From an uncultured Arenicella sp. (GTDB taxonomy: Bacteria > Pseudomonadota > Gammaproteobacteria > Arenicellales > Arenicellaceae): a stretch of DNA of 41,806 nucleotides. The notes beneath the pieces are model-generated. The model did not search any database. It was not told where the DNA came from and saw only the letters and a program-made list of their open reading frames with translations. The translations under genes and the position numbers were made by a program. This document shows, piece by piece, positions 8,844-28,597 of the stretch; positions within the stretch are counted from its first letter, which is position 1; each line of letters opens with the position of its first letter. The stretch lies in the NCBI GenBank assembly GCA_937973905.1, contig CALJJR010000108.1, forward strand, positions 1-41,806. Direction: 5' to 3'.

Positions 8844-10034
8844 ATGGAAATACACTTAATCGACTATCAATCCACTAGTGCTGCGGGCCGCAATTTTGCT
8901 GAGCTCCAACAGTCAATCGATACGCACCAGAGTGGTCTGCGGAAAAACGATTTTCCTGATATAGATATAGACACTTGGATAGGCCGAGTAGACGGTTTAG
9001 AAGACGTCGAACTTGGCGAGTGGCAGAGTCGAAATAATGCGCTCGCTTGGATGGGTCTCCAACAGGGGTCGATCTTGTCAAATCTGGAACGGTTGAAACA
9101 CCAATATTCCGCAGCACGAATTGGGGTTGTGATGGGCTCCAGCACGTCGAGCATTGATCGTACTGAGACTGCTTATACTGACCTCGATGACGATGGAAAT
9201 CTTCGCGTGGAGTTTATCCAAGCCAAGGTTCACAATCCTGGAGCGCCATCATTATTTGTCGCCCAGCATACTGGCGTAACGGGACCATCGCTGACGATCA
9301 ATACAGCTTGCTCGTCATCGGCGAAAGTTTTTGCCACCGGTGCGCGATGGTTGCAAGCCGGTATCGTAGATGCGGTTTTGGTAGGCGGAGTTGATACCCT
9401 CTGTGGCAGCGTTCTGTATGGTTTCCATTCTCTACAACTTGTGTCCACCGAGCAGTGCGCGCCGTTTGATCAAGCGCGCGATGGTATTAATCTGGGAGAA
9501 GCTGCGGGTTATGCGATTCTGGTCCGAGCGGACCATGATATGACGGCTTTAGAGGCACCGGGCATAGCGCTTGTCGGTTACGGCGAAAGCTCAGATGCGC
9601 ACCATATGTCGCATCCGCATCCAGACGGTTTGGGTGCGAGACTTGCCATGCAACAGGCTATGCAGATGGCCGAGCTTGAACCTAAGCAAATAGATTACGT
9701 CAACCTGCACGGCACCGCCAGCCGTGCCAATGATTTGATTGAAGGAAAGTTGATTGAAAGCTTGTTCCCAAAATCAACCAGAGTTTCTTCAACCAAGGCT
9801 TGGATGGGGCACACCTTAGGTGCCGCTGGTATTACCGAGGCATTGCTTGCCGTGGATGCATTGCAACGCGGTGTCATCCCCGGGAGTAAAAACTTACAAG
9901 AACTTGATGAACAATTAGATATCACGATACAGGCGGAAAACGATAAACGTAAATGTCATTACGTCTTGTCGAACTCCTTCGGGTTTGGCGGTAACAACAG
10001 TTGTTTAGCTTTTAAAAACATCGCAACGTCGTGA
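8844..10034 (+). CDS. Beta-ketoacyl synthase (FabF-like, aryl-polyene/xanthomonadin cluster)
   Basis: This condensing enzyme extends the polyene chain from malonyl-ACP. The Cys-His-His triad of active ketosynthases is complete: Cys156 in NTACSSSAK, His289 in NLHGTAS and His323 in WMGHTLG. The C-terminal NSFGFGGNN motif is also present. I chose the ATG at 8844; an in-frame TTG at 8817 would add nine residues with no better ribosome site. The next gene starts with GTG overlapping this stop, so the two are translationally coupled. This pairing fits a ketosynthase with its chain-length factor, as in ApeO-ApeC of aryl polyene clusters. First gene of the long plus-strand biosynthetic operon. Confidence 0.92.
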   Translation: MEIHLIDYQSTSAAGRNFAELQQSIDTHQSGLRKNDFPDIDIDTWIGRVDGLEDVELGEWQSRNNALAWMGLQQGSILSNLERLKHQYSAARIGVVMGSSTSSIDRTETAYTDLDDDGNLRVEFIQAKVHNPGAPSLFVAQHTGVTGPSLTINTACSSSAKVFATGARWLQAGIVDAVLVGGVDTLCGSVLYGFHSLQLVSTEQCAPFDQARDGINLGEAAGYAILVRADHDMTALEAPGIALVGYGESSDAHHMSHPHPDGLGARLAMQQAMQMAELEPKQIDYVNLHGTASRANDLIEGKLIESLFPKSTRVSSTKAWMGHTLGAAGITEALLAVDALQRGVIPGSKNLQELDEQLDITIQAENDKRKCHYVLSNSFGFGGNNSCLAFKNIATS

Positions 10035-10834
10035 TAAGTACCAATCTAAATTTCAAAGTGCTTGGCGTGGGTGCATGGGGGTTGAGCTTCCGTAATGGAG
10101 CCGATCTGCGAAACGTTCTGGCGGGCCAGGAACTGGAAGATGACGGAGCTAAAGGTCCTAAACCAGAAATCATACCTGCCAATGAAAGACGGCGCGCGCC
10201 CTTATCAGTCAGACTTGCGGTGGAGAGCTCTTGGCAGGCGGTGCAAGGCAGTGGTGTCGACGTGCAAGATCTGGCATGTGTTTTTGTCTCAGGTCTTGGC
10301 GATACTCAGCTCACTGACTATATGTGCACGGCTTTGGCCAAGGAAACCAAAGCGCTCTCGCCCACTAAGTTTCATAACTCAGTGCATAATGCAGCAGCAG
10401 GTTATTGGACGATCAGCACCGGTTGTATGCAAGCGGCGAATTCGATTGCGGCTTTTCAGGAATCCGCTTCGGCGACGTTGTTAGAAGCGGTGATTCAGGC
10501 ACAAGCAGATGCCAAGCCATTGCTACTAACGTTCTATGATGCACCGGTATCAACTAAATTAAGATCCATGTTAAAAAACGAGCATGCGTTTTCCTTGTCT
10601 ATTGTGATTGCGCCCTGCGATGTACAGGACGCAGGTGCAATCAATGTAAGCGTGGAACGTACAACCGCAGACTGGCCCGCGTTATCCGGGACTCCGGAGC
10701 TGCAAGCTTGTTATGCCAATAACCCGGCTGCCCGTATTCTCGCCTTAGCTGCATTAACCGACGCCCCTGATGGTACTATTAGCCGCCTTCCGCTCAGTGC
10801 AGAGACGGCGCTAAGATTGCAGAAGGTTAGTTGA
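10031..10834 (+). CDS. Chain-length-factor-like ketosynthase homologue (ketoacyl-synt_2 type)
   Basis: A 267-residue protein resembling only the N-terminal half of a ketosynthase, as in the beta-ketoacyl synthase-like family PF13723 found in aryl polyene clusters (ApeC-like). The diagnostic stretch is SPTKFHNSVHNAAAGYW at about residues 107-123. No ketosynthase active-site Cys in a TACSS context and no HGT or GHT histidine motif can be seen, so it is likely a non-catalytic partner that sets chain length. The GTG start at 10031 overlaps the upstream TGA (GTGA), which suggests equimolar synthesis with the ketosynthase. Confidence 0.85.
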   Translation: MISTNLNFKVLGVGAWGLSFRNGADLRNVLAGQELEDDGAKGPKPEIIPANERRRAPLSVRLAVESSWQAVQGSGVDVQDLACVFVSGLGDTQLTDYMCTALAKETKALSPTKFHNSVHNAAAGYWTISTGCMQAANSIAAFQESASATLLEAVIQAQADAKPLLLTFYDAPVSTKLRSMLKNEHAFSLSIVIAPCDVQDAGAINVSVERTTADWPALSGTPELQACYANNPAARILALAALTDAPDGTISRLPLSAETALRLQKVS

Positions 10835-10868
10835 ACAAAAATATCGAATAGGTTCGAGCAATATTGAA

Positions 10869-12446
10869 ATGCAAAAGGTGATTGAAAAAGACGTAGTGAT
10901 TGCAGGTGGTGGTTTGGCCGGTCTCACCTTGGCGCATCAGCTGAAAAACTCAACGCCTGAACTCGATATCTTGGTGCTTGAGAAAAATCGTTTTCCGATT
11001 CCGGAGAAAACTGCCAAGGTGGGTGAATCTACTGTAGAAATTGGTTCACGCTATCTAAATCACACCCTAGGTTTAAAGGAGCATTTCAACGATCGGCACT
11101 TACGGAAACACGGGTTACGCTGTTTTTTTGGTACGCCGCAACAAGATTTTTCTGACTATGATGAGCTGGGCGTAAGCCAACTGTTTGGAATTCCAACCTA
11201 TCAGATCGATCGTGGTGCCATCGAAAATCATTTGCAATCGATTGTGAAGGACCAAGGCGTCGAGGTCTGGGACGGTGTTGAAACCTCAGATTTAGCAGTT
11301 AGCAGAAGCGAAAAAACAATCTCCGTAGCCCAAGCAGAGGGAGAGAAACAAAGGGTAAGCGGCAAGTGGATGATTGATGCCGCTGGCCGGCGAGCCCTTA
11401 TGAAAGATTCATTGGGGCTTGCGCAAGATAATGATCATAAGGGTAACGCCCTATGGTTCCGAGTAGACCGCCAGATCAAAATCGACGAGTGGTCAAATGA
11501 CCAAGAGTGGCAAGCACGAACCGAGCAATCGAATACTCGCTGGTTAAGCACCAATCATCTGATGGGGCCCGGCTATTGGGTGTGGATCATTCCGCTCGAC
11601 AATGGTGCGACGAGTATCGGTATCGTCATGGACGATGAAGCGTTTGCAAGCCACGACTTTAGCACCCTTGATAGCACTTTATTTTGGCTCGAAAAACATC
11701 ACCCACAGTGCGCTGATGCGATTGCCGGTGCCGACATCCTCGACTATGTCGTTATCAACGATTACTCACATAGCTGCAAACAAATGTTCTCCGAGCAAGG
11801 CTGGGGAGTAACTGGCGAATCAGGCGTGTTCGCCGACCCGTTTTACTCACCAGGCAGCGACTTCATCGCCCTTAACAATACCTTCTTACATGACCTAATC
11901 GGGCGCTGGCGCCAAGGTCAAGACATTCGCTTTCACAGTCGTTTATATCAAAGTATGAATCAGTCGTTCTTCGATAGCACCTTATCCTTGTACACCGGTG
12001 AATACGGCGGCTTCGGTGATCGTCGTATGATGTCCTTAAAGCTCGTTTGGGATTACGCTTACTATTGGGGCGTGTTAAGTCTCTTGTTCTTTAAGTCAGC
12101 TATCACTGATCCAGACCTAATGCGGCAGCTCAATCCCGTGCTTCGAGAAGCACAGTCTTTGAACCAGTCAGTGCAGGCAGCATTTCGAAAACGTGCGGCG
12201 CAGCGCTTAGTGTTGCCCGCAGAAGGCATATTTATGAACCAATATAATGTGCCGTGTTTGCGCCATTTCAATAAGGTGTTGGATGATCAGAATTTAGGTG
12301 CGCAGAGCGCTCTGCCGGACAACGTAGTTTTACTTGCTCGCTTGAGCCAGTATGTTCAAGCAATGCTGGACGATAATGCCAAGCTTGTCATTTGTGACGA
12401 TGAGCGTGAGCTATTAGGTGACTACCGTCACTGCGTATTGGCTTAA
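10869..12446 (+). CDS. Flavin-dependent halogenase homologue
   Basis: A 525-residue FAD enzyme of the tryptophan-halogenase superfamily. The FAD-binding GGGLAG is at residues 13-18 and VGEST at 51-55. A Lys in the KxGxxxFFG context (Lys80) matches the position of the catalytic Lys that forms the haloamine in pyrrole/phenol-type halogenases. The halogenase signature WxWxIP is intact as WVWIIP at 237-242, and the second motif FxDPxxSxG is seen as FADPFYSPG at 321-329. Xanthomonadins are brominated aryl polyenes and their clusters carry halogenase-like genes, so ring or chain halogenation of the product is a reasonable role. The long C-terminal part could contact a carrier-bound substrate. A separate flavin reductase is not seen here. 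Confidence 0.88.
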   Translation: MQKVIEKDVVIAGGGLAGLTLAHQLKNSTPELDILVLEKNRFPIPEKTAKVGESTVEIGSRYLNHTLGLKEHFNDRHLRKHGLRCFFGTPQQDFSDYDELGVSQLFGIPTYQIDRGAIENHLQSIVKDQGVEVWDGVETSDLAVSRSEKTISVAQAEGEKQRVSGKWMIDAAGRRALMKDSLGLAQDNDHKGNALWFRVDRQIKIDEWSNDQEWQARTEQSNTRWLSTNHLMGPGYWVWIIPLDNGATSIGIVMDDEAFASHDFSTLDSTLFWLEKHHPQCADAIAGADILDYVVINDYSHSCKQMFSEQGWGVTGESGVFADPFYSPGSDFIALNNTFLHDLIGRWRQGQDIRFHSRLYQSMNQSFFDSTLSLYTGEYGGFGDRRMMSLKLVWDYAYYWGVLSLLFFKSAITDPDLMRQLNPVLREAQSLNQSVQAAFRKRAAQRLVLPAEGIFMNQYNVPCLRHFNKVLDDQNLGAQSALPDNVVLLARLSQYVQAMLDDNAKLVICDDERELLGDYRHCVLA

Positions 12447-12461
12447 ACGAAGATACCTGCT

Positions 12462-13016
12462 TTGCTGCTAGTCTTTATCGCAATCGCTGCAGCGACCGCC
12501 GTTTACCCATTTATTATTTACTCAAACCTGCAGGCATGGGGACCAGCGACCCTGGCCCTGGGGTTGTTCGTTTTGTTGTTGGCACGGGTTCTAGTCCGCG
12601 GGTCATTTAGGCAGCCCGAGCAATATCTTCAGTTAATCCTAGTTGGTGGTTTATGTATGCTCGCCGCTTTGTTGCAAAGCGAAGACCTATTGCGCTATTA
12701 CCCAGTAGCCATGAGTCTGGCATTTGCGGCGTTTTTCGCTTCGTCTCTTGCTGCGGAAACGTCATTGATCGAGCGATTTGCCAGCATGCGTGGGCAATCA
12801 GATTTTGCGCCACATCAACGATCATACATGCGCCGTTTGACCATCGTTTGGGCGGTATTGCTTGCTGTTAATGCAACCATTGCTGCTTACACTGCCTGTT
12901 GTATGTCGCTAAAATCATGGACTCTCTACAACGGTTTGATCTCGTATCTTATTCTAGGCATTTTCAGCCTGGCTGAATTGATCGTACGTTATTACTACAA
13001 GAAAAAGCACGACTAA
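12462..13016 (+). CDS. Small polytopic membrane protein of the pigment cluster
   Basis: A 184-residue hydrophobic protein with about five membrane segments (roughly residues 1-20, 25-42, 52-68, 76-92 and 122-145, with a last one near 155-175). It resembles the uncharacterised membrane proteins of the COG4648 type that accompany ketosynthases in aryl polyene and xanthomonadin-like clusters. The only plausible start is TTG at 12462, since an in-frame stop lies at 12444-12446 with no ATG between. It sits 15 bases after the halogenase gene within the operon. A role in localising the synthase or handling the lipid product is a guess. Confidence 0.72.
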   Translation: MLLVFIAIAAATAVYPFIIYSNLQAWGPATLALGLFVLLLARVLVRGSFRQPEQYLQLILVGGLCMLAALLQSEDLLRYYPVAMSLAFAAFFASSLAAETSLIERFASMRGQSDFAPHQRSYMRRLTIVWAVLLAVNATIAAYTACCMSLKSWTLYNGLISYLILGIFSLAELIVRYYYKKKHD

Positions 13017-13030: not shown

Positions 13031-13432
13031 ATGCTGTCAACTGAGTCAATAAATAGCCAATTGCAAAATTTAGACCAACAACTGGGTTGGCCGAATATTG
13101 TTTCAGTGCAGCATGTGGAGATGGCCTATGAGCTGCAGTTGTCGATCCCCAGCAACCTTGAAGTGTTTGCCGGCCATTTTCCTGAAGAGCCAGTGCTGCC
13201 GGGAATCTTACAAGTTCACTGGGCGGTGGCCCTTGCGGAGATTTGTTTTGATCGAACTTTAGGTGATGGCTTCAATGCTATGAAGGGTATCAAGTTCAAT
13301 AGTATGGTAGTGCCGAGTTCAGAATTACGACTAAGTTTGAAATTGCAAAATAGTAGATTGGCCTTTAGCTATTGGCAGCGTGATATCAAATATTCCAACG
13401 GCTCCTTGGTATTCAATGAGGAATCACCATGA
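13031..13432 (+). CDS. Hotdog-fold 3-hydroxyacyl-ACP dehydratase (FabZ/ApeI-like)
   Basis: A 133-residue single hotdog domain. The helix motif GHFPEEPVLPGILQVHW at 48-64 matches the FabA/FabZ catalytic region, with His49 as the likely catalytic base. It corresponds to the ApeI-type dehydratase, which removes water from the 3-hydroxyacyl intermediate to leave a double bond in the growing polyene. Its stop overlaps the start of the glycosyltransferase (ATGA), so it is cotranslated with it. A second dehydratase lies at 15163, matching the paired dehydratases of aryl polyene systems. Confidence 0.87.
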   Translation: MLSTESINSQLQNLDQQLGWPNIVSVQHVEMAYELQLSIPSNLEVFAGHFPEEPVLPGILQVHWAVALAEICFDRTLGDGFNAMKGIKFNSMVVPSSELRLSLKLQNSRLAFSYWQRDIKYSNGSLVFNEESP

Positions 13433-14184
13433 GTCTTTGTTTAGTCATACCACACTACAATCACAGCGCCTCGTTTGTTGACTTTTTGCCACGCCTGCGC
13501 GCTTTGAACGTGCCGTGCATCGTAGTGGACGATGGAAGCGATGCAGATGAATTGGCTGCGCTCAAGGCCGCGCTGGTCGACGCAGCGGATATCGAGGTAA
13601 TGCAGCACGCCAGTAATCGCGGTAAAGGTGCAGCGATGGTCACGGGCTCGGAACGAGCACTAGCCCGAGGTTTTACCCATATGTTACAAATTGATGCCGA
13701 CGGCCAGCACGATACCAACGACATCGCTAAATTTAGGGCGATGAGCGAACAACATCCGCACTCGATCATTTCTGGTGCACCCACCTTTGATGATTCGGCA
13801 CCGAAAGCGAGAGTTTATGGTCGTAAAGTAACGGATTTTTGGGTCGCTCTAGAAACGTGGACTCTGACCATCGAAGACAGCCTGTGTGGCTTTCGAATCT
13901 ATCCCCTAGCAGAGTTTAAACAAGTGGAACGCCGCTTCGGTATTGCTCCGCACATGGACTTTGATACCGATGTATTAGTCAAATCAGTATGGCTTGATGT
14001 GCCTATTCGATTTATCAAAACCGCGGTCATTTATCGCCCCGGGAACAATTCTCATTTTCACTATTTGCGCGACAATCTTCGTCTGATTGCCTTACACACT
14101 CGGCTTATGTGTGGAATGCTAATTCGTGCCCCGTGGTGGTTGGTAAGAGGCGGAGCAAGACGGATTGCTAGTTTGAGTCGATGA
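13429..14184 (+). CDS. Family 2 glycosyltransferase
   Basis: A 251-residue GT-A fold enzyme. LVIPHYNH opens the protein, VVDDGSD at about 31-37 and IDADGQHD near 87-94 are the nucleotide-sugar and metal-binding Asp motifs. It resembles dolichyl-phosphate-mannose-synthase-like glycosyltransferases. The C-terminus carries one moderately hydrophobic stretch, suggesting membrane association. Between a dehydratase and an acyltransferase, with four-base overlaps on both sides, it probably adds a sugar to the lipid headgroup that carries the polyene. The sugar donor cannot be told. Confidence 0.88.
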   Translation: MSLCLVIPHYNHSASFVDFLPRLRALNVPCIVVDDGSDADELAALKAALVDAADIEVMQHASNRGKGAAMVTGSERALARGFTHMLQIDADGQHDTNDIAKFRAMSEQHPHSIISGAPTFDDSAPKARVYGRKVTDFWVALETWTLTIEDSLCGFRIYPLAEFKQVERRFGIAPHMDFDTDVLVKSVWLDVPIRFIKTAVIYRPGNNSHFHYLRDNLRLIALHTRLMCGMLIRAPWWLVRGGARRIASLSR

Positions 14185-15158
14185 CCGAATCTACTAAGCC
14201 TGAAGCCCTATCCGGCCATTGGTCGAGCATTAAAGAAGCTGGAACCTTGTTTGGTTTGCAGTTCTTAAGTTTTATTCACCGCGTTTTTGGTCGTCGAGCA
14301 GTTTCAGTTTTACTGTTACCCACGGTGGCGTATTTTTTGCTCTTTAGGCCTGCGTCTCGGCGCTGTTCACTGGAGTACTTGAATCGTCACTTTGAGAGTT
14401 TTCCATCACAATGGAAAAAGCCACCTAATTTATTAAACGCTGCTCGACACTTCTCTGAATTTGCCGAGTCAGTCGTGGATAAGCTGCTGTCATGGTGTGT
14501 TGAGATAGACGCAGATAAGTTCGTGCTAGCCGATGCTGATCAGGTGGAAAACCTGTTGCAAGATAAACGCGGCAGTTTGATCATCGGTTCGCACTTTGGC
14601 AATCTGGAGTATTGCCGCGGATTCATGCACCGTTATAAAGATAAGGTGATCAATATCTTAGTGCATGACAAACACTCGGCAAACTACAACACCATTATGC
14701 AGCAGCTAAACTCCGAGTCTCGTCTGAATGTGTTTCAAGTCAGTGATTTCGACATTCAAACCATGCTGCAAATCAAACAAAAAATAGATGCGGGAGAATG
14801 GATTTTTATTGCCGGTGATAGAACCCCGTTAACCGGTCAACAACGCACGGTACCGGTAAAGTTCTTGGGTGCCACAGCGTACTTTCCGATTGGCCCCTAC
14901 TTGCTTGCTCAAGGCCTGGCGTGCCCGGTCAGACTTATGTTTTCCCATCGCAATTATCATGGTGATGATGAGCGCGTGTTTTTCGAAGTGGTGGACTTTG
15001 CTGAACGGGTCAAACTAGATCGAAAACAGCGCGTGGAACAATTGCAAGATTATGCTCAAGCGTTTGCTGATCAACTCGCTAAGCAATGTGAGCGTTCCCC
15101 GTATCAATGGTTTAATTTTTACCCATTTTGGGCACCACAAAGGGAGCAGCCGGTTTAA
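14181..15158 (+). CDS. LpxL-like lysophospholipid/lipid acyltransferase
   Basis: A 325-residue protein of the lipid A acyltransferase (LpxL/HtrB) family. The catalytic HxxxxE box is GSHFGNLEY with His138 and Glu143, and GDRTPLTGQQRTVPVKFLG follows as in that family. A hydrophobic N-terminal segment near residues 40-55 would anchor it to the inner membrane. It overlaps the glycosyltransferase by four bases (ATGA). In aryl polyene clusters such enzymes are thought to transfer the finished polyene, or another acyl chain, to a glycolipid carrier. The exact acceptor is unknown. Confidence 0.85.
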   Translation: MTESTKPEALSGHWSSIKEAGTLFGLQFLSFIHRVFGRRAVSVLLLPTVAYFLLFRPASRRCSLEYLNRHFESFPSQWKKPPNLLNAARHFSEFAESVVDKLLSWCVEIDADKFVLADADQVENLLQDKRGSLIIGSHFGNLEYCRGFMHRYKDKVINILVHDKHSANYNTIMQQLNSESRLNVFQVSDFDIQTMLQIKQKIDAGEWIFIAGDRTPLTGQQRTVPVKFLGATAYFPIGPYLLAQGLACPVRLMFSHRNYHGDDERVFFEVVDFAERVKLDRKQRVEQLQDYAQAFADQLAKQCERSPYQWFNFYPFWAPQREQPV

Positions 15159-15162
15159 GTCG

Positions 15163-15615
15163 ATGTTCGAACAAGAAATTTTAGAACTGCTGCCCCATCG
15201 CCCACCGATGTTGCTTATTAATGAGATTGTTTCCTTGTCGCAGAGCCAATCTGAGGCTTTAGTCGCGCTCAAAGATCAGCCACCGTTCTCCAGCGGATCT
15301 GAAGCAGTGCCAGCATGGGTGGGTCTTGAATACATGGGCCAAACTGCGGCCTTGATTGCTGGATACCAGCAACGAGAGGGCTACTGCGAACCACATCTTG
15401 GTTTCCTACTCGGATGCCGTAATTACACGACGAATGTCAGCCAATTTGAGCTGGGAGTGCCTCTACTCATTTCTGCTGAGCAAGCAACTGTAGTAGGCGA
15501 GAGTCTGGCGACATTTAAATGTACAATTGCGAACTTTGAAACTCGAACACACTACGCGCAAGCGCTACTTTCTGTATTCCGTCAGCCTCTGCGCGAGATA
15601 ACTTCTCAAGTTTAA
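15163..15615 (+). CDS. Second hotdog dehydratase (ApeP-like)
   Basis: A 150-residue hotdog protein beginning MFEQEILELLPHRPPMLLINEIV, whose LPHRPPMLLI block is typical of FabZ-like and ApeP-type dehydratases. The frame is open back to 15052, inside the previous gene, but the ATG at 15163 lies five bases after the upstream stop and gives the expected N-terminus. ApeP and ApeI form a dehydratase pair in the aryl polyene pathway; this gene with that at 13031 gives the same pair here. Ends nine bases before the second ketosynthase. Confidence 0.85.
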   Translation: MFEQEILELLPHRPPMLLINEIVSLSQSQSEALVALKDQPPFSSGSEAVPAWVGLEYMGQTAALIAGYQQREGYCEPHLGFLLGCRNYTTNVSQFELGVPLLISAEQATVVGESLATFKCTIANFETRTHYAQALLSVFRQPLREITSQV

Positions 15616-17779: not shown

Positions 17780-17943
17780 AGCGTTGAATGAGTGGTGAGC
17801 GAAAAAGCCTGATATCAGATTCTAGCATCCATCGCCCCCTTGATGGCTCAATGCATTTAAATAGGTGTCACTCAGCGGATTGCAGATGGTTCGCGGCAAG
17901 ACTTATACTGGGCCTTTATCAACAAGAAAAAGAAAGGCTTTAC

Positions 17944-18696: not shown

Positions 18697-18742
18697 GAAT
18701 CAGTCTTCACATCAACCTCTGTCTAGATAATAGGAATAGCAA

Positions 18743-19123
18743 ATGTTCAGTCACATCATGATCGGTAGCAATGATATCGAGAAATCAAAATCCTTTTACG
18801 ACGCGATACTTGGCGCAATAGGTTATGACCCTGGGGTTATAGATGAAAAAGGTCGAGTTTTTTACTTCACCAAAAAAGGCGTGTTCGCCTTGTCCAAACC
18901 GATTGATGGTGAGCCTGCATGTAACGGCAATGGCAGTACCATTGGTTTTTCCGCACGCACACCGGAGATAGTGGATGCCTGGCATGCTGCTGGGCTAGAG
19001 AACGGCGGAACTACGTGTGAAGATCCTCCGGGCATTCGTGAAGGAGCTGGTAAAAAGCTCTATCTCGCCTATTTGCGCGATCCCTCTGGCAATAAAATTT
19101 GTGCCCTTCATAGCATGGCCTAA
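18743..19123 (+). CDS. VOC-family glyoxalase-like protein
   Basis: A 126-residue vicinal-oxygen-chelate domain protein. MFSHIMIGSNDIEKSKSFYD opens with the first metal-ligand His4 and the DxxxSxxFY pattern; YLRDPSGNKICALH near the end supplies the typical DPxGN motif and the final strand. Single-domain VOC proteins include glyoxalases, dioxygenases and drug-binding proteins, and the substrate cannot be told here. A ribosome site (AGGAAT) lies about ten bases before the ATG. It follows the HEAT-like gene by 46 bases, probably as an operon. Confidence 0.88.
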   Translation: MFSHIMIGSNDIEKSKSFYDAILGAIGYDPGVIDEKGRVFYFTKKGVFALSKPIDGEPACNGNGSTIGFSARTPEIVDAWHAAGLENGGTTCEDPPGIREGAGKKLYLAYLRDPSGNKICALHSMA

Positions 19124-20275: not shown

Positions 20276-22576
20276 TTAGTTGTGGTTTTCTTGTAGTGTG
20301 TCTTGCGGGTTGGACAAAATCATCGCACCGATTAAATTGAATAAGTTGCCAATTAATAGCGTAAATCCGAAACTGCTGACGATAGGTATTTCACTCATCG
20401 CCAACAAGCCAAACGAAAGCAGGCTGGTTAGGGCCGATAACACGATGGCTTGCATCGTTATATTTCGGTGGCGAGTCATTTCACGGCTAAAGATCGCATA
20501 GTCCATACCAAATCCCAAAACCAGAAACAGTGCCATTACATGGAACAAATTTATTCCAACACCAAAGACCATGCACAAGCTAACAAAGCCTGCGATGGAG
20601 CCAATCGGAATCAGCAATGACGATAGCGCGCTAAAAGATCGATACCGAATTACTAAAATAATCGCAATGAGCCCAATAGCAATTAGCAAATAGGCAGCGG
20701 CTGCTGAACGTTGCTTTTGCAATTCGGCAGACGTGCGCGCAAGCGTATTAACGTACTCCACACCTGGCAAGGTAGCTGTGACATCGGACACGGCATCGGC
20801 GTTTAGGCCCTTGCGGATTAGGATAAAGCTGACCACACTCCCTTGTTCAGATTCAAACCAAGAAGGCGGAAGAAAACGGTTTAGCAAGGATTGCAGTTGC
20901 ACTGGGCTTAATCGTTCGTCTCGAGCATTTTTGTAAGCAAGCATTGCGGATTCAACTAAATTGCGATCAACCCCCAGATTATCAGCCAGAAGCTCTGCGG
21001 CTCCCTCCGCTGCATAAAGTTTATTCATGGCAAGGTAGTTCTGCCTTTGCTCAGCTTCGTTTATGAGCATAAGCGGAATGCCTCGGAAGTCAGTCGCCTT
21101 GAATTGGGTTTCTGCACGCACGGCAGCAGTAAATGCAGACACCCTAGAGTAGACTTCTTCACGGCTGTTACCGGCAACAATGACATAGCGGCCCGGTTCA
21201 AAATCTGTCGCAACTGCAGCGACTTTTTGTTCGCTCTCTACGAGTCTAGGGTCGGCATTAAAAAATACTCTAGGGTCATCATTAAAGTTCTCCGCCTGTT
21301 GGGATCCGTATAGCCCTACCAGAGCGAGTACCAAGACTATTAACGACCATGCTTTCGCCGAGACAGTCTGTAGCGCATTGCTTAACCGTTTTGCAGACCA
21401 AGCGAGTGAATTGCTCACCCTTCGATCTGTGAGCGTGAAGTAGTGCCCGACCACCACCACCGTTATCCAGGCCATCAATAGTCCGCTGCACGAAAACACC
21501 GCTACTTTTTGCAACGCGGGTAATCCTGCTAATCCCAGAGCCGCATATCCGATCACTGATGTGCACAGACTCAATGCCAGAGCGCCAAACAAGTTTGCGC
21601 CTATGGTTCGCTCTTTGCTGCCACTTTGATGCACTAGATAATGCAGCGCATAGTCTATTGCTATGCCAATCAAACTGGCGCCGAACACAATGGTTAAGAT
21701 GTGCAAAGAGCCGAATATCAGATGCGTTACCGCTGCGGCAAAAATCACGCCGCTTGCCACCGAGATTAGGGGTAATCCTAGCGCTCGCAGTGAACCAAAA
21801 GTGAGCCACAGCAACATGACGATGCCAATTGTCGAGATGCTACTGATCAAGCTGATATCGCGTTTCGCAGATTGTGCCGCATCGGCTGCGAAGAAGAAGA
21901 CGCCAGAAGTATCAATCGACACTTCAGTGGTCGATTTAATGTTAGTGAAAATTGAATCGAGTTGTTGCGAAAGTGTTTCTTGTGCGCGAATGTCCATTGC
22001 ACCGCGCGCAATACTGAGGCCTATCAACCTCCAACTTTCATCTTCCGCCCGCTGTTGAAAAAAATTTAACAGCGCCGAACTGTGCCACCCAAGAGGGTCG
22101 TCGGCAAAACTTAAAATACGCGGTTCGCCGATCAACGTCAGCATCTGCGACTTTGCCTGCTCCGCAATTTGCTCAGCGTTGAAGTCAATCAAATCTTGAT
22201 GCTGAGACTCGGTTAAAAAATTGAATCGAAAAGGCGATAGCTGTACCTGCAAGGTATCGAATATTTCGTCGCTATCGGGGTGAATTTCTAGATTAGGTAG
22301 CCCCGTGAGTGCTTCTCGCAAGAGCTCTTCAGCTCTATCCAAATTAAATTCATCTGTCGAGCTAAGGAGAATTAGTACACGATTTTCGATATTCGATTGC
22401 AATGACTTAATTGCATCTGCAGATTCGACGCTATTGATTGTGGTTGGGGTGACATCGGCGAGATTGGTATCAATTTGTACAGGTTTTGAACCCACGAACA
22501 TGGCCACTGCTATCGCTAACCAAAGCGCTAACCAACACCACTTTAGCCAAGCACTGTGGGACTCAGTGCTGTGCAT
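20276..22576 (-). CDS. MMPL/RND-family exporter
   Basis: A 766-residue inner-membrane transporter of the RND/MMPL superfamily. It has the duplicated plan: a first membrane helix (about 10-28), a large periplasmic domain, a helix bundle near 235-400, a second periplasmic domain, and a second bundle near 625-760. The conserved Asp motifs of helices 4 and 10 appear as GIAIDYALHY and GFGMDYAIF. It corresponds to the XanF/ApeM exporters that are thought to move aryl polyene lipids across the inner membrane. It overlaps the LolA-like gene by 14 bases. Confidence 0.92.
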   Translation of the reverse strand: MHSTESHSAWLKWCWLALWLAIAVAMFVGSKPVQIDTNLADVTPTTINSVESADAIKSLQSNIENRVLILLSSTDEFNLDRAEELLREALTGLPNLEIHPDSDEIFDTLQVQLSPFRFNFLTESQHQDLIDFNAEQIAEQAKSQMLTLIGEPRILSFADDPLGWHSSALLNFFQQRAEDESWRLIGLSIARGAMDIRAQETLSQQLDSIFTNIKSTTEVSIDTSGVFFFAADAAQSAKRDISLISSISTIGIVMLLWLTFGSLRALGLPLISVASGVIFAAAVTHLIFGSLHILTIVFGASLIGIAIDYALHYLVHQSGSKERTIGANLFGALALSLCTSVIGYAALGLAGLPALQKVAVFSCSGLLMAWITVVVVGHYFTLTDRRVSNSLAWSAKRLSNALQTVSAKAWSLIVLVLALVGLYGSQQAENFNDDPRVFFNADPRLVESEQKVAAVATDFEPGRYVIVAGNSREEVYSRVSAFTAAVRAETQFKATDFRGIPLMLINEAEQRQNYLAMNKLYAAEGAAELLADNLGVDRNLVESAMLAYKNARDERLSPVQLQSLLNRFLPPSWFESEQGSVVSFILIRKGLNADAVSDVTATLPGVEYVNTLARTSAELQKQRSAAAAYLLIAIGLIAIILVIRYRSFSALSSLLIPIGSIAGFVSLCMVFGVGINLFHVMALFLVLGFGMDYAIFSREMTRHRNITMQAIVLSALTSLLSFGLLAMSEIPIVSSFGFTLLIGNLFNLIGAMILSNPQDTLQENHN

Positions 22577-23291
22577 CGTCGTTATTGTTGGACTCTTGAC
22601 CTAGACGGCCTTGATAGAGCAACACGCAGTTGTCTTTGGCGGTGAGGAACGCGTTCAAACACGCGTCGCTACCTAGGTCTTTCTCTATCGAGCTGAGTGC
22701 TGATATTTCGAGCTGAGTCTCGGTGCCACGCCGGTCAATGATCTTAATCGTTTGCATTTGTCGTTCTGAATTCAGTTGCAAATGCACAAACTGTAGAGCA
22801 CGTTTAAAGCGCTTACTTTTGGGCGCGAGCCGAATGCTGTGCGTGTTTTCTCCAGCGCTCGACTTTTCGATGTGTACGCTAAAGTCTTTTTCTATGGTCT
22901 CTAGATTGCCATCGAGCATGGCGAGCATAATAGTGCTGACAAGCTTGCTGGCTCGTGCAGATAATCGCTTGATCTCACTGCCAGCTACGAGGAGAGTCGA
23001 GCCGTCATTGGCGACTACAAGGGCCTCCTGCACCGGTTGAGCGGTTAACCATATTAAACCGGCTTCACAGTCATGGAAGAATCGCCCTCCTGACTCTAAA
23101 TTTGCTGGGAGCCCAGCAATCCTTTTTTGTTGGCTGAAAAGTCCAGTAGTGATACAGCTAGCAGGTTTGGGCAGAACAACCTTGCTTGTGTTGGTCTCAA
23201 CCGCTTGAGCAGCTTTCACAGACCAACCCATTCGGTTTTCGTAAATGAAGGCACCAACTATGAGTGCTAAGTAGACGCTGGTCTTGCTCAT
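22563..23291 (-). CDS. LolA-like periplasmic carrier protein
   Basis: A 242-residue exported protein with an N-terminal hydrophobic segment (residues 4-18) followed by a region of alternating beta-strand pattern. In position and size it matches the LolA-like outer-membrane lipoprotein carriers (ApeL-like) that sit beside the MMPL exporter in aryl polyene clusters; sequence likeness visible by eye is limited (FFHDCEAGLIWLTAQPV fits the strand carrying the FxW motif of LolA-like proteins). Two Cys pairs may form disulfides. It probably ferries the lipid through the periplasm. Starts within the thioesterase stop (four-base overlap) and ends inside the exporter gene. Confidence 0.72.
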   Translation of the reverse strand: MSKTSVYLALIVGAFIYENRMGWSVKAAQAVETNTSKVVLPKPASCITTGLFSQQKRIAGLPANLESGGRFFHDCEAGLIWLTAQPVQEALVVANDGSTLLVAGSEIKRLSARASKLVSTIMLAMLDGNLETIEKDFSVHIEKSSAGENTHSIRLAPKSKRFKRALQFVHLQLNSERQMQTIKIIDRRGTETQLEISALSSIEKDLGSDACLNAFLTAKDNCVLLYQGRLGQESNNNDDAQH

Positions 23292-23722
23292 TTCGATGAG
23301 TATTTTTTGATCGCGGTATCGACAGCTGTGAGCATTTCTTGCGGGGCTTGGAACAAAGTGATATTGCCGGGCATTTGCACTGCAATTTGAGTGGTTTGCG
23401 CCTTGGTTAATCGTTGCCCAGTGTCTCGGTCATGGATAGCATAGTTAATCACCAGTTTATCTCGCCATTCTTTAAGCGCAGCTGAAACGACGATATCTTG
23501 TTCAAAGATGATCGGCTGGACGTATTTGACCTGCAAATCGATCACCGGATAAAAATACCCTGATGATTCCATTTTGGAATAAGGGTAAGCGATCATATCC
23601 AATAGCTGGCAGCGTGCGATCTCAAAGTATTTGGGGTAGTTCCCGTGCCAAACAAGGCGAAATGAGTCCACATCGTAGAACGGGACTTTCATCTCAAAAC
23701 TCGTGCTTAACACGGTGCTCAT
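23288..23722 (-). CDS. Acyl-CoA/ACP thioesterase (4HBT hotdog family)
   Basis: A 144-residue hotdog thioesterase. FYDVDSFRLVWHGNYPKYFE covers residues 15-34 and matches the 4-hydroxybenzoyl-CoA thioesterase/YbgC signature, with Asp17 as the likely catalytic residue. In aryl polyene clusters a thioesterase of this kind (ApeK-like) is thought to release or proofread the acyl chain on the carrier. It overlaps the LolA-like gene by four bases and lies 25 bases after the ACP gene. Confidence 0.87.
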   Translation of the reverse strand: MSTVLSTSFEMKVPFYDVDSFRLVWHGNYPKYFEIARCQLLDMIAYPYSKMESSGYFYPVIDLQVKYVQPIIFEQDIVVSAALKEWRDKLVINYAIHDRDTGQRLTKAQTTQIAVQMPGNITLFQAPQEMLTAVDTAIKKYSSK

Positions 23723-23747: not shown

Positions 23748-23993
23748 TTATCTCAGCACATCAATGGCGTCTACGACGTCGCCCAGTGTTCGAACATTTT
23801 TAAAGTGTTCGGCATCGATGTCGCGGTTGATATAGCGCTTGAGCTCGAGCATCAAGTCCAATGTATCTATGCTATCAATGTCGAGGTCGTCGTAAAGTTG
23901 CGCACTCTCAACCAAGGAATTATCTTCCACTTCAAAAAGTTCAATCATAACTTTTCGCGTATGTTCTAGAATCTCTGGGCGACTTGGAAACAT
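23748..23993 (-). CDS. Acyl carrier protein (first of two)
   Basis: An 81-residue acyl carrier protein. The phosphopantetheine-attachment Ser is Ser41 in DIDSIDTLDL, with acidic helix II after it. The paired second ACP is at 26150. Two carriers are typical of aryl polyene (ApeE and ApeF) and related systems: one may carry the aryl starter and the other the growing chain. Sits between the acyltransferase and thioesterase genes in the minus-strand operon. Confidence 0.92.
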   Translation of the reverse strand: MFPSRPEILEHTRKVMIELFEVEDNSLVESAQLYDDLDIDSIDTLDLMLELKRYINRDIDAEHFKNVRTLGDVVDAIDVLR

Positions 23994-24025: not shown

Positions 24026-24817
24026 TTATAACGCAGGTGGCGCGGCTGCAACGATTTCTGTCACTTCTATTAAATAGTAACGTCGTAACCACTCAGTCAG
24101 ACGACGGTACTGTAGTGGGCGCGCTAGCGAAACATCGATCGTATCTGAGAGTTTCAAAACGGCGTTAAATTTAACCGTGATACATGATTTGGTGTCTGGT
24201 AATTGATACCAAGATTCTCCTTTTTGCAGAGCACGGGGTTGGCAGCAAATGATGACCGGTAAAATCGGACTGTTAGCAAAAACGGCGATATTCGCAGCTC
24301 CACGTTTGAAATCCAACTGAGTATCGTACTGATTGCGAGTCCCTTCCGGAAATATCAAAACGTTCTCGCCGTTTCTAAGTTTGGTTGCGGCGATCTCTAC
24401 CAGGTTCTCGTCGTCATTGGCTATGTAGCCAGCAAGCCTGACAGGGATGCGCGTAAATGGATTACGACAGAGCGCACTTTTCACCACGCAACATAGATTC
24501 GGTACATAAGCCAAAATGAACAGCGCATCGATCAACATGGTGTGATTTGAAATTACCAAGTGGCCTTTGGCTGGTTTTTCATTAAGCCCCGATAGCTCAT
24601 ATCTCATGAGGCCTAGAAACTGCATAAAGTTGACGTAAAACAAGCACAGGCGCTGAATCGCATTGCGTGCGCGCCGTTGTTTTTCTGCGGCCTGCATCGG
24701 TGTTACGGCGAGCGCCAAAACATAGGCACCGGGTAAAAAAGCGCCCAAAGCAAAGACAATATAGCTGAGGCCAGCCGCTAAGATGCGCCAGTAATGGTTA
24801 GCCGAAAGAAGTCTCAA
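24026..24817 (-). CDS. PlsC-type 1-acylglycerol-3-phosphate acyltransferase
   Basis: A 263-residue member of the PlsC family. The catalytic NHxxxxD box is NHTMLID at 91-97 (His92, Asp97) and the acceptor-binding FPEGTR is at 156-161. One or two N-terminal hydrophobic segments (about 14-38) anchor it. In Xanthomonas an acyltransferase of this type (XanK) is needed to attach the polyene to its lipid. Here it probably loads the aryl polyene onto a glycerolipid acceptor. It starts 43 bases after the chorismatase. Confidence 0.88.
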   Translation of the reverse strand: MRLLSANHYWRILAAGLSYIVFALGAFLPGAYVLALAVTPMQAAEKQRRARNAIQRLCLFYVNFMQFLGLMRYELSGLNEKPAKGHLVISNHTMLIDALFILAYVPNLCCVVKSALCRNPFTRIPVRLAGYIANDDENLVEIAATKLRNGENVLIFPEGTRNQYDTQLDFKRGAANIAVFANSPILPVIICCQPRALQKGESWYQLPDTKSCITVKFNAVLKLSDTIDVSLARPLQYRRLTEWLRRYYLIEVTEIVAAAPPAL

Positions 24818-24860: not shown

Positions 24861-25817
24861 CTAAGCATTGCTGCTAACGCAGAAAGCTTCAATTTCGACT
24901 AATAACTCTTGGCGACAAATGTCGGCTTCAGCAAGCACCAATTCACAATCTGGGTAACTCTGGTGCACCAGCTCGCGACAAAGATCAACCTGGTTGGCGT
25001 CACGCAAGTAAACTCTGAGAGTTTGAATCTGTTGCGCTTTGAAGCCGGTTTCTTCTAACAAGTAGAAAATATTGTCATTGGTCGTATGCAATTGCAGCGC
25101 AAGATCCCCCTCATGAACGGTTCGGTGACCGAGAATGCTGGCCGTACCGGAAATAAAGCAGTAGTCATTATCACCTGCGCTGATGGTACTAGCGCGCGCA
25201 AACGATGGGCTACTTGGGCCATATTGTCGAGGATATTTGAATGCATCGACTTGGCGAGGATTGGCGTGGTGGGTGGCTGCGTGCACGCTACTAAGCGCGC
25301 AGACGGCCAATCCGTTTTGATGGTGGCCAACCGCTGAAGCCGCTGGAAAAAGGTGGCTTTCGATATTGTGCTTGTTAAATGCAGCGAGGCGCCCGTTGCA
25401 AAAGCGTTTGTAATTTTCGCTATCGCCTTTGCCGTCGTTAATAGCGGGGACATAATTCCAAAATCGAACGAGGTTGGGCGCCGGGGATTTGCTGATGGTG
25501 GTGAGCAACTCCTTGTATGCGGTTTCCGCAACTAAATCGTAATCGTCTTGCGGCCCCAGCGGCAGGTTCACCGTGGTGAATTGAAAAAAACGATCTCGTC
25601 GCCAATGGCAGGCCCCGTCTACCCCAGATTCAACAGGTCCTTGTGCGGATTTCCATAGCTCGGTGGCATTATGACCGGGTAATTCTGCTACATGAATCGT
25701 GGGTGCAGAACTCTGCGCGGCGTTGCCAAATCGCAGAATTGCTAAAGCATCATCATTGTTTTGCAGCTGGTCAATGGGATCTGTGGATAGAAAATTGCGG
25801 AGCATTTTAGATAGCAA
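24861..25817 (-). CDS. Chorismatase of the FkbO/Hyg5/XanB2 family (hydroxybenzoate synthase)
   Basis: A 318-residue enzyme recognised by several conserved blocks of the chorismatase family: VRFWNYVPAIN at 117-127, NYKRFCNGR at 135-143, FPAASAVG at 157-164, the block at 186-209 starting NPRQVDAFKYPRQYGPS, and ISGTASILGH at 222-231. Hyg5 and XanB2 turn chorismate into 3-hydroxybenzoate (XanB2 also makes 4-hydroxybenzoate); FkbO hydrolyses it to a dihydroxycyclohexadiene acid. In Xanthomonas XanB2 supplies the aromatic starter for xanthomonadin, and that role fits here. Which subtype it belongs to cannot be settled by eye. First gene of the minus-strand operon, with its own long upstream region. 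Confidence 0.88.
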   Translation of the reverse strand: MLSKMLRNFLSTDPIDQLQNNDDALAILRFGNAAQSSAPTIHVAELPGHNATELWKSAQGPVESGVDGACHWRRDRFFQFTTVNLPLGPQDDYDLVAETAYKELLTTISKSPAPNLVRFWNYVPAINDGKGDSENYKRFCNGRLAAFNKHNIESHLFPAASAVGHHQNGLAVCALSSVHAATHHANPRQVDAFKYPRQYGPSSPSFARASTISAGDNDYCFISGTASILGHRTVHEGDLALQLHTTNDNIFYLLEETGFKAQQIQTLRVYLRDANQVDLCRELVHQSYPDCELVLAEADICRQELLVEIEAFCVSSNA

Positions 25818-26149: not shown

Positions 26150-26416
26150 GTGAGCACGCAATCCCCAGCCGAAGCCCAAATGGCTGAATTATTGGTCGAA
26201 GTCTTGAATCTTGAAGACATCGAAGCAACTGAAATTGAACCTGAAGAACGTTTGTTTGGAGACGGTCTAGGTTTGGATTCTATTGACGCACTAGAGATCG
26301 CTTTGGCTATTGCTCAGGAGCATGGTGTTGAGATGAAAGCTGAGGATGAGACGACCAAGGAGGCGTTTGCCAGTCTGCGCACTTTGACCGCTTTTGTTGA
26401 GCAGCACAAGGCTTGA
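26150..26416 (+). CDS. Acyl carrier protein (second of two)
   Basis: An 88-residue acyl carrier protein with Ser44 in GLGLDSIDALEI as the phosphopantetheine site and an acidic body. The start is GTG at 26150, selected by the ribosome site AAAGGAG seven bases upstream; no ATG fits. It lies 74 bases before the AMP-dependent ligase and may be the carrier that receives the activated hydroxybenzoyl group. Its partner ACP is at 23748 on the other strand. Confidence 0.92.
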   Translation: MSTQSPAEAQMAELLVEVLNLEDIEATEIEPEERLFGDGLGLDSIDALEIALAIAQEHGVEMKAEDETTKEAFASLRTLTAFVEQHKA

Positions 26417-26490: not shown

Positions 26491-27873
26491 ATGAAGGCTA
26501 GCCCATTGCTGGCACGCTCTGCGAACGCTCCGATTGTCTGGTTGCATGCAGAAATCCCGCCACTTGGTCTAGCGGCTGGGCCTATCTCCGGGCGCCAATT
26601 TCTCCGCCAAGTAACACAACTGGCTTCGGTTCTGCCAGACAAAAAATTCGCGATTAATCTCTGTGCCAATCGGTATTTGTTTTTATTGTCACTGTGCGCT
26701 TCGATAGTCCGTGGTCAAACCAGTTTATTGCCGCCTAATAAGCGTCGCACGGCGCAGCTCCAGCTCGCACAAGATTACCAAGATCCTTATCTACTGCACG
26801 ACGGCGTAGATGAACTCGCTGATTTGCCAAAATTTAACTTGTTTGAGCAGGCTTTAGATTTTTCCGCGGAACTTCCTACTGAGCATTTTTCACCGCCTGA
26901 AATTGATGCAGAATTTCCGGCTCTGATCAGTTTTACTTCTGGCTCAACTGGTCGCTCTAAGCCGAACATAAAATCTTGGCGAACGCTGCGAGAAAGTACT
27001 GCGATCAATGCGCGCTATATGGTGCCGAAGGTTGATCAGACGTATTACCATTTGGCCACAGTTCCAGGTCAACATATGTGGGGACTGGAAACGTCGGTCA
27101 TTATGGCCTTGTTTGCCAATGTGTGTGTCTCTGATTCACAGCCGTTCTTTCCGGCCGATATTGTCGATCACCTTCAGCAATTGCCACGGCCGCGAGCTTT
27201 GATAACGACGCCATTGCATTTGCGAAGCTTACGCGAAACCCAGGGAGCGTCGCTAGAATTGGATAACGTGCTCTGTGCAACGGCGCCCCTATCGAAGGCA
27301 CTTGCTCAGGAAATAGAGCATAGATTCGGCACGACTCTGCGCGAGGTCTATGGATGCAGCGAGGTCGGTTCGATGTCGGTACGACAAACGGCTCGCGATG
27401 AACTGTGGCAAGCTTTTGAGGGTCTGAATTTTTCGCAACAGGCTGCAAAGACGATTGTGACAGCGAACCATCTTCCGGAATCAACCACTCTGTCCGATGC
27501 ACTAGAGCCAGTGGACAATGGCTATTTTCGTCTGCAAGGGCGTCAAAGTGATTTGATTAAGATTGCGGGGAAGCGCGGCTCGCTTGCAGAGGTCAATCAA
27601 GCCATTTTGGACTATCCCGGTGTTCAAGATGGTGTTGCTTTTATGCCGCCTCAAGATAAGGCCGTACCGCGGCTCACGGCGCTGGTAGTATGGGGAGAAG
27701 GCAATGATACCGCTGACCAGCAGAAAGACGGGCTACGCGATCATCTTCGCCAGCGACTAGATACCGCATTTGTACCGCGTCCGATCTTGTCAGTACCCAG
27801 CTTACCGAGAGAAGAAAACGGCAAGATAACGCAGACAAGGCTGTTGTCCTACTACGACTCTATTCATAATTAG
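26491..27873 (+). CDS. AMP-dependent acyl/aryl ligase (starter-unit activation)
   Basis: A 460-residue member of the ANL adenylating superfamily. Core motifs are TSGSTGRSKP at 149-158, YGCSEVG at 287-293, GRQSDLIKIAGKR near 346-358, and the catalytic Lys in NGKITQ close to the C-terminus (about Lys445). It is shorter than typical acyl-CoA ligases but like the XanA2 and ApeH ligases of aryl polyene clusters. It would adenylate the hydroxybenzoate and transfer it to the holo-ACP encoded just upstream. It ends 14 bases inside the convergent phosphopantetheinyl transferase gene. Confidence 0.88.
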   Translation: MKASPLLARSANAPIVWLHAEIPPLGLAAGPISGRQFLRQVTQLASVLPDKKFAINLCANRYLFLLSLCASIVRGQTSLLPPNKRRTAQLQLAQDYQDPYLLHDGVDELADLPKFNLFEQALDFSAELPTEHFSPPEIDAEFPALISFTSGSTGRSKPNIKSWRTLRESTAINARYMVPKVDQTYYHLATVPGQHMWGLETSVIMALFANVCVSDSQPFFPADIVDHLQQLPRPRALITTPLHLRSLRETQGASLELDNVLCATAPLSKALAQEIEHRFGTTLREVYGCSEVGSMSVRQTARDELWQAFEGLNFSQQAAKTIVTANHLPESTTLSDALEPVDNGYFRLQGRQSDLIKIAGKRGSLAEVNQAILDYPGVQDGVAFMPPQDKAVPRLTALVVWGEGNDTADQQKDGLRDHLRQRLDTAFVPRPILSVPSLPREENGKITQTRLLSYYDSIHN

Positions 27874-28597
27874 TCATTTCTGCTTTAAAGGATTGCCAAT
27901 TTATAGGGAGGGTCTCTTGCTGATTGATAGCTGCACAATTGCCCTCGAAGCTGGCACGGTGAACAGTCACTTCAGCTGGCAAGGTCTGATCCGTACAGAC
28001 AGAAATCATCATATTGTTTGCCAGCTTGCTGCTGAATACATCAGCTTGAGCAGAGCTAACCTGATTCAGCTCGAGGTTTTTCAAGCGCGAATTTAGGATT
28101 GGAATACACCGCTGTTTAAACCAAGCTTCTTTTTGCGTCCAAAGCGTGATCATCGCTATACGAGCTTCCGACTCCTCGAGTTGCTCGAGTTGGTCAAGCT
28201 GCCGAGTATTGCAAAAACCAGCCGCTATATTGATAGAACGTTGGCTGTCGATACCTTCAACGTCAAGGCCAATCGCACTCTCTGACATCGCCAGCGCAAG
28301 AGTGTTTTGACAATGTGAAATGCTGAATGAGGGAAGCGCTAGTTGAGCGTGTTTACCGACTAATTTTGGCGGTAAATCTTGTTGTTCAATGATTTCCCAC
28401 TCTGTCGCTTTTACCGTGAAAGTTGGGACAAGGAGTTTCTGGAGCAAGAGTCGGCCCCAAAAAAACGACCAAACCCGCTTCCCTTTAAGTCTTGCCAGAC
28501 GTTGCCGTTGATTGGCATGAAGGTGCTCATTGAGTGCTTCTATATCGAAATCGAGTGTGTTGTCGAAAGATACAATATGCAGGCTGGTTGGTGGCAT
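27860..28597 (-). CDS. 4'-phosphopantetheinyl transferase (Sfp type)
   Basis: A 245-residue Sfp-like transferase. The conserved motifs FSISHCQN, GLDVEGIDS (Mg-binding acidic residues) and WTQKEAWFK (Lys and Glu of the KEAxxK signature) are in the right order. It would convert the two ACPs of the cluster, and perhaps other carriers, to their holo forms. The gene is convergent with the ligase and overlaps it by 14 bases. The 182-base gap to parA must hold promoters for both this gene and parA; I could not identify one. Confidence 0.88.
   Translation of the reverse strand: MPPTSLHIVSFDNTLDFDIEALNEHLHANQRQRLARLKGKRVWSFFWGRLLLQKLLVPTFTVKATEWEIIEQQDLPPKLVGKHAQLALPSFSISHCQNTLALAMSESAIGLDVEGIDSQRSINIAAGFCNTRQLDQLEQLEESEARIAMITLWTQKEAWFKQRCIPILNSRLKNLELNQVSSAQADVFSSKLANNMMISVCTDQTLPAEVTVHRASFEGNCAAINQQETLPINWQSFKAEMTNYE

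Follow-up and report, generated by a model that had tools for sequence, protein, structure and literature searches.

A xanthomonadin/aryl-polyene-type gene cluster between rsmG and parA in an uncultured Arenicella genome

Introduction

Aryl polyenes are widespread bacterial pigments, and clusters are often assumed to keep one position across a genus. In this study, we analyse a contig of an uncultured Arenicella sp. (Gammaproteobacteria; GenBank assembly GCA_937973905.1, contig CALJJR010000108.1) on which a 20 kb gene block of xanthomonadin/aryl-polyene type lies between rsmG and parA. Among the genomes compared, this position is particular to the one studied here. The block begins beside rsmG with a first ketosynthase gene (KS1), contains a second (KS2) and a ketoreductase gene (KR), and ends beside parA with a 4'-phosphopantetheinyl transferase (PPTase) gene. 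Judged by its genes, it is an ordinary, complete-looking type II polyketide cluster, patchily present in the genus. We consider it likely that the cluster has changed site several times and lineage at least once within the genus, and that in the present genome it entered the gene run mnmG-rsmG-parAB.

The window is the whole of contig C108 (41,806 nt) of draft genome G000, which comprises 3.38 Mb in 231 contigs and is 88.75% complete. The comparison set consisted of 100 genomes, that is, G000 and 99 relatives.

The rsmG-parA site

Matches to both rsmG (limit 1e-10) and parA (limit 1e-50) were found in 88 of the 100 genomes. Two of these (G080 and G097) carry the genes on separate contigs and were excluded from the gap count, leaving 86 with both on one contig. 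The gap, taken as the distance between the ends of the two matches, is 7-583 bp (median 38) in all 85 other genomes and 20,025 bp in G000. A sequence-only reading of this DNA had held that the two genes are usually neighbours and had staked the oddity of the site on relatives having rsmG beside parA; both points are borne out by these 85 genomes. Among the titles and abstract openings listed in literature searches on transfer and synteny, the origin, and rsmG/parA, none concerned this arrangement, which does not prove its absence from print.

The draft state of the genome, and the fact that the window is one whole contig, raise the question of an assembly chimera, with cluster and flanks from different strains joined by the assembler. 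For this, the assembler would have had to err twice, each time between intact genes. Moreover, the genome gives a single KS2 match at 1e-80, the ahcY region (see below) is independently broken on two other contigs, and the composition is uniform. We regard a chimera as improbable.

Cluster sites across the genus

KS2, called at E 1e-80, is present in 8 of the 17 other members of the genus (G004, G005, G007, G008, G012, G013, G015 and G017). Core order was compared as far as the contigs reach (the clusters of G008, G017 and G005 are in pieces), and to that extent it is the same in all eight as in the window. The eight differ from the window in their chromosomal sites, in the presence of MipA (an MltA-interacting outer membrane protein) and in the cargo between KS2 and KR. 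Across the nine cluster-bearing genomes five sites are seen: between ahcY and a glyoxalase gene in five genomes, three other places in three, and rsmG-parA in G000. The first of these, the ahcY/MipA-glyoxalase site, is occupied in G004, G012, G015 and G005 (in the last over three contigs) and, by the left flank only, in G017. The cluster of G013 is flanked by other genes on its MipA side, and its far end abuts genes located in G004 ~36-50 kb to the right of dnaA. On the MipA side, the neighbours differ again in G007 and G008, and the flanks of G013, G007 and G008 have no homologous gene in common. Among the nine members without KS2, ahcY adjoins glyoxalase or a TPR gene in seven (G001, G002, G003, G006, G009, G010 and G011; G014 and G016 fall outside this count). 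In G008 ahcY adjoins glyoxalase and the cluster is elsewhere; in G007 ahcY and glyoxalase lie at the ends of two contigs.

The edges of the cluster also vary. MipA, a usual rather than a defining companion, occurs in all eight other cluster-bearing members and in none of the nine without KS2. In these relatives it is divergent from KS1, at the edge where rsmG now ends in G000; a search of G000 at 1e-3 gave no MipA match in this incomplete genome. The PPTase gene at the opposite edge has weak matches (26-28%) in G012 and G013 and was not found in G004, G015 and G005.

Between KS2 and KR, window positions 16913-19123 form a variable cargo spot, which in G004 holds several kb of other genes. The cupin gene has a homologue in seven of the nine other cluster loci examined (not in G007, nor in the short G008 piece), and the glyoxalase-like cargo has none in the examined stretches of G004, G012 and G003. 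A second FAD halogenase-like gene stands at this spot in G004, G005, G007, G008, G013, G015 and G018; it is not in the window block or in G012, and the rest of G000 was not searched for it. Two further clusters (L056 in G090 and L057 in G084) each carry a convergent pair of KS2-type genes, with 62-64% and 51-52% identity to the window KS2.

Ancestry of the cluster

The patchy presence of the cluster (8 of 17) and the five sites in nine genomes favour acquisition, in which the donor was another strain of the genus or family and the cluster was inserted directly between rsmG and parA. The window KS2 is 66-72% identical to those of genus members, 67% to that of G018 (same family, another genus, and the closest outside the genus) and at most 64% to the rest. 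A KS1 search of the genome contigs returned three distant loci only, with best segments at 38-41%. In a tree rooted with outside clusters, those of the genus stand apart from G018 with support of 100, G008 excepted; G008 is misplaced in that tree through the inclusion of a paralogous KS1 piece.

Support for exchange also comes from the strong conflict between two trees, one of 15 cluster genes, for which G018 was chosen as the root, and one of 18 host genes. The cluster alignment is partial for G008, G017 and G018, and the host alignment for G005, G017, G013 and G018. On the corrected set, the two trees reject each other, and p-values of the approximately unbiased test (p-AU) near 1e-70 are to be read as 'rejected' and no more. 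The conflict is plain for G007, which is sister to G012 in the host tree (100) and to G008 in the cluster tree (100). In a reduced set without G007, G008 and G012, rejection of the host topology by the cluster data persists, whereas rejection of the cluster topology by the host data is only marginal (p-AU 0.049; Kishino-Hasegawa test, p-KH 0.051), which counts against acquisition. Judged from these trees, exchange of the cluster within the genus is supported in general, plainly for G007, and for G000 is no more than possible.

Two further points stand against acquisition. There is no insertion signature, and the composition of the block matches its surroundings: coding GC is 0.487 in the block and 0.483 in the flanking genes used, with a codon-frequency correlation of 0.90. 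A foreign composition of the block was rejected on these figures. Taken with the evidence in its favour, acquisition comes close to being probable.

Distance from the origin and rearrangement

The contig bearing dnaA (C105) overlaps the start of the window by 141 bases in reversed orientation, which places dnaA ~3-4.5 kb beyond the left end of the window, at ~12-32 kb from the block. Two observations underlie this join: the 141-base overlap, and a dnaA-to-mnmE order that recurs in G004, G012 and G003. Three relatives with long contigs (G004, G012 and G015) have the cluster on the other arm, at 34-70 kb from dnaA, and KS1 is again the origin-proximal end. The sequence-only reading had called the place unusual and suggested that closeness to the origin could raise copy number during growth. 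The first claim holds in part: the rsmG-parA site is particular to G000 among the genomes compared, but there is no support for placement near the origin being what is special, since three relatives have it too. As to the second, if the midpoint moved by ~20-35 kb along a ~1.7 Mb arm (half of 3.38 Mb), dosage would differ by no more than a few per cent. Although the block does lie within ~12-32 kb of dnaA, the distance from the origin has hardly changed relative to the three measurable relatives, and selection of the placement for gene dosage is therefore very improbable.

In other families, 23 genomes have a KS2 homologue and 22 of them an rsmG match; KS2 is on the rsmG contig in 3 and on another contig, where distance is undefined, in 19. 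The three (G371, C94; G024, C8; G347, C1) have the homologue ~56, 79 and 108 kb from rsmG. The cluster contig of G018 (C33) carries genes that in G004 sit ~7 kb left of dnaA. Perhaps these clusters tend toward origin-proximal placement. As a separate observation, two parS-like sites lie ~1.4 kb from dnaA on C105 (L051, positions 6068 and 6124), with pairs similarly placed in G004, G012 and G003; the sole parS-like site in the window is a degenerate copy at 6664 in mnmG.

The surroundings of ahcY are also altered in G000, where they are broken over contigs C222 and C130. On C222, ahcY adjoins GST and a gloB-like gene. On C130, TPR-MBL-cysI adjoins sdaA, an M3 peptidase gene, ppa and hppA (sdaA, M3, gloB and GST were named by eye). 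The pair hppA-ppa lies right of lemA in G004, G012, G003, G008 and G013, and in G000 beside M3-sdaA-TPR (L040, C130 367-8473). The origin region of G000 thus shows more than one rearrangement. An M3 gene is also beside TPR in G008, without sdaA.

These changes favour relocation inside the chromosome, that is, a move of the cluster from elsewhere near the origin (e.g. the ahcY site) by inversions or transposition, with KS1 kept origin-proximal. In particular, ahcY is on one contig and TPR-MBL-cysI on another, each beside new genes, hppA-ppa has come to lie beside sdaA-TPR, and the orientation of the cluster relative to dnaA is kept. On the other hand, in G008, which some host trees place near G000, the cluster is elsewhere, ahcY adjoins glyoxalase (glyox2), and M3 stands beside TPR with no sdaA; this lineage may therefore never have had the cluster at the ahcY site. 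By reasoning, no single inversion yields both the rsmG-KS1 and the PPTase-parA junction, and one origin-spanning inversion was set aside on that ground. We hold relocation as a tentative possibility. For G000, relocation and acquisition cannot be told apart because its placement in the trees is weak.

The junctions and the case against the preferred reading

The left junction contains two short copies of flank sequence: positions 8779-8790 are an inverted 12-nt copy of rsmG 8706-8717, and 8803-8814 a direct 12-nt copy of 8878-8889 in the start of KS1. Such copies could come from template-switch break repair, an explanation reached after the fact. The cluster probably entered the mnmG-rsmG-parAB run here, possibly via non-homologous break repair, and the MipA edge gene is missing.

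RNA folding of the left-junction region is better than in shuffles (z -2.7). At both junctions, scans for promoters and terminators yielded roughly as many sites as shuffles or fewer, apart from the left side, which has two terminator-like sites against 0.9 expected, one inside rsmG (minus strand) and one upstream of rsmG. The right gap, compared with the rsmG-parA gaps of seven relatives, aligned within the range of shuffles. A motif upstream of KS1 in the five ahcY-site genomes (G004, G012, G015, G017 and G005) is not in the window; it is also absent from the searched stretches of G007, G008 and G018, so its absence here means little.

Several observations weigh against the reading of a patchy cluster that changed site and entered here. 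The 12-nt copies were tested after being seen, and 7 of 5000 random window positions do equally well (0 of 5000 shuffles of the gap). Moreover, an alignment of the left gap to its rsmG-parA counterpart in G008 scores 31 (in 300 shuffles, 95% at 24 and a maximum of 31). The left gap may be old rsmG-parA intergenic sequence, in which case the copies may be chance. No integrase, transposase or other mobility gene was found among the 40 window proteins scanned, no tRNA in the window, and no word of at least 7 bp common to the two gaps in either orientation; on these three counts no mechanism of movement is evident. The absence of MipA from G000 could be a gap in the assembly, and MipA homologues occur outside the genus in G021 and G023, both without a KS2 match. 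The sites of G007, G008 and G017 rest on one flank. Finally, the support for the position of G000 is low, at 70 in the cluster tree and 82 or 87 in host trees that give it different sisters.

Two candidate vehicles were rejected. An integrative element or genomic island would be at odds with the lack of integrase, tRNA and common border word. For a plasmid origin, the halogenase protein was searched against 72,556 plasmid records at 1e-30, which gave two matches with 38-39% identity.

Gene content and predicted product

All the genes named by the sequence-only reading were recovered in place, and its assignment to the xanthomonadin/aryl-polyene type agrees with published clusters. Beyond its list, the block contains an IspA/COG4648-like membrane protein, a family-2 glycosyltransferase, and cupin, HEAT-repeat and glyoxalase-like genes (table 1), the last three being atypical of an aryl-polyene core. 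The core genes form four blocks of alternating strand: KS1 to KS2 rightward, KR to the chorismatase leftward, acyl carrier protein (ACP) 2 and the ligase rightward, and PPTase leftward.

The features expected of such a cluster are present. KS1 adjoins the half-size chain-length-factor (CLF)-like subunit; an ApeO-type ketosynthase, KR and the ApeI/ApeP dehydratase pair are all there, as are the aryl ligase, ACP and PPTase genes and export genes of MMPL/LolA type. The chorismatase is of XanB2 type at family level (PF21168, PDB 5ag3/FkbO), with TIGR04444 below its cut-off. KS1 most likely starts at ATG 8844 and not at TTG 8817, as the protein read from there (MEIHLIDYQSTSAAG) lines up with the starts of its relatives. 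Motifs read by eye are intact in KS1 (TACSSS), KS2 (SACTAG), ACP (DSID), the halogenase (WxWxIP) and the ligase (SFTSGSTGRSKP), and we take them to have their usual meanings. The PDB entries 6qsp and 6qsr are from the Xenorhabdus ape pathway. In the CLF-like protein, the cysteine of a KS-like ST(G/D)C motif is retained in nine relatives; the glutamine two positions after it is S, E or K in five of the nine.

Table 1. Features of the cluster and its flanks in the window.
Feature	Coordinates	Strand	Evidence or remark
rsmG, intact, left host flank	8095..8757	+	TIGR00138 153.9 bits vs cut-off 99.5
Left junction, 86 bp	8758..8843	.	two 12-nt copies of flank sequence
KS1, ApeR/PRK09185-type ketosynthase, TACSSS motif	8844..10034	+	NF006618 461.7 bits vs cut-off 407; start from alignment
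Half-size CLF-like protein, 267 aa (ApeC / Lysobacter ORF16 type)	10031..10834	+	PF13723 94.1 vs 25; PDB 7f28_A, 6qsp_B
FAD-dependent halogenase homologue, WxWxIP motif	10869..12446	+	PF04820 55.2 bits vs 21; PDB halogenases PltA, CmlS
IspA/COG4648-like membrane protein (ApeG-like, inferred)	12462..13016	+	PF04279, TIGR00997 below cut-offs; order kept in relatives
ApeI-like dehydratase	13031..13432	+	PF22818 43.7 vs 28.5; PDB 6qsr_A
Glycosyltransferase family 2	13429..14184	+	PF00535
LpxL-like acyltransferase	14181..15158	+	PF03279
ApeP-like dehydratase; start uncertain, overlaps preceding frame	15052..15615	+	PF22817 43.1 vs 27; PDB 6qsr_B
KS2, ApeO/PRK09116-type ketosynthase	15625..16875	+	NF006587 623.9 bits vs 470; PDB 7f27_A
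Cupin-like (Cupin_8) protein, cargo	16913..17779	-	PF13621
HEAT-repeat protein, cargo	17788..18696	+	PF13646 29.1 vs 27.7
Glyoxalase-like protein, cargo	18743..19123	+	PF00903
KR (ApeQ/FabG type)	19545..20273	-	TIGR01831 393.2 vs 338.85
MMPL-family exporter	20276..22576	-	PF03176
LolA-like carrier	22563..23291	-	PF03548 above cut-off; NF053544 flexirubin LolA2 below cut-off
4HBT thioesterase	23288..23722	-	PF13279
ACP 1	23748..23993	-	PF00550; NF003757 83.2 vs 65
PlsC-type acyltransferase	24026..24817	-	PF01553
FkbO/Hyg5/XanB2-family chorismatase (aryl starter)	24861..25817	-	PF21168 105.3 vs 27; TIGR04444 195.7 below cut-off 325; PDB 5ag3, 5a3k, 4bps FkbO
ACP 2	26150..26416	+	NF006617 104.9 vs 70
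AMP-dependent aryl ligase	26491..27873	+	PF00501 57.3 vs 29.9
PPTase, edge gene	27860..28597	-	PF01648 34.1 vs 25
Right junction, 182 bp, divergent PPTase / parA	28598..28779	.	
parA + parB, intact, right host flank	28780..30417	+	PF13614, PF02195, PF17762

The cluster shares parts with three published systems. In Azoarcus sp. BH72, the genes of the xanthomonadin-like arc system are divided between two unlinked loci; in common with the window are the chorismatase (ArcB), AMP ligase (ArcT), halogenase (ArcA), KR, dehydratases, glycosyltransferase, acyltransferases, LolA, exporter and ACP (PMC3949708). Azoarcus has an MltA-interacting protein gene (arcC) and a dialkylresorcinol (dar) cluster, whereas the window has a single locus, with no MipA found and no dar genes in the block. 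The yellow-pigment cluster of Lysobacter enzymogenes has a ketosynthase beside a half-size CLF-like protein (ORF17/ORF16), ACP, KR, two dehydratases and a LolA-type carrier, all found in the window, and is without the halogenase gene of which the window has a homologue (PMC3691225). With the ape cluster of E. coli CFT073, the window has in common the ApeC/O/R ketosynthases, ApeI/P dehydratases, two ACPs, the COG4648 protein and an RND exporter (PMC8253772). According to the same account, the E. coli genes all run in one direction, unlike the alternating blocks of the window, and include a methyltransferase (ApeB), and 4-hydroxybenzoic acid (4-HBA) from ubiquinone synthesis is proposed as the source; the window block has its own chorismatase and gave no methyltransferase match.

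Since these parts are the same in kind as those of the Azoarcus, Lysobacter and E. coli clusters, the predicted product is most likely an aryl polyene primed by 3- or 4-hydroxybenzoate and located in the outer envelope; bromination cannot be read from the sequence. By homology, the chorismatase would supply the hydroxybenzoate starter (its sequence does not distinguish 3-HBA from 4-HBA) and the ligase would load it on ACP. KS2, the CLF-like partner, KR and the ApeI/ApeP pair would extend the starter to a polyene, the acyltransferases would join this to lipid, and the MMPL/LolA proteins would carry it to the outer envelope, where such pigments would guard against light and oxidants.

Read from left to right, the whole window carries mnmE, five other genes, mnmG, rsmG, the 20 kb block, parA, parB, genes for a response regulator and a hybrid histidine kinase, the atp operon and lemA; within the operon, atpE, F, H, G, D and C were named from order and from matches to relatives. 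Between mnmE and mnmG (1226-3497) lie two long open reading frames (392 and 346 aa) without a Pfam match, which are kept in several genus members at 42-70%.

Implications

A bolder view, which we consider unlikely, would treat the pigment cluster as a site-hopping unit without mobility genes that reached its five or more places in the genus by replication-template switching, in part with exchange between species. In G000, the hop would have cut the mnmG-rsmG-parAB transcription unit. The first pigment operon would now follow rsmG and lack the divergent intergenic region that it usually has with MipA, and parAB would depend on a new divergent promoter, so that pigment and partition genes would be newly coupled or uncoupled.

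On the reading that we prefer, a patchy cluster that changes site and sometimes lineage, the genus offers a cluster of at least ~20 kb with a conserved core order at five sites in nine genomes, and with short junction copies at one of them. Altogether, this would make it a tractable system in which to study the movement of biosynthetic clusters that have no visible mobility genes, and to learn whether an interrupted rsmG-parAB run carries a cost.

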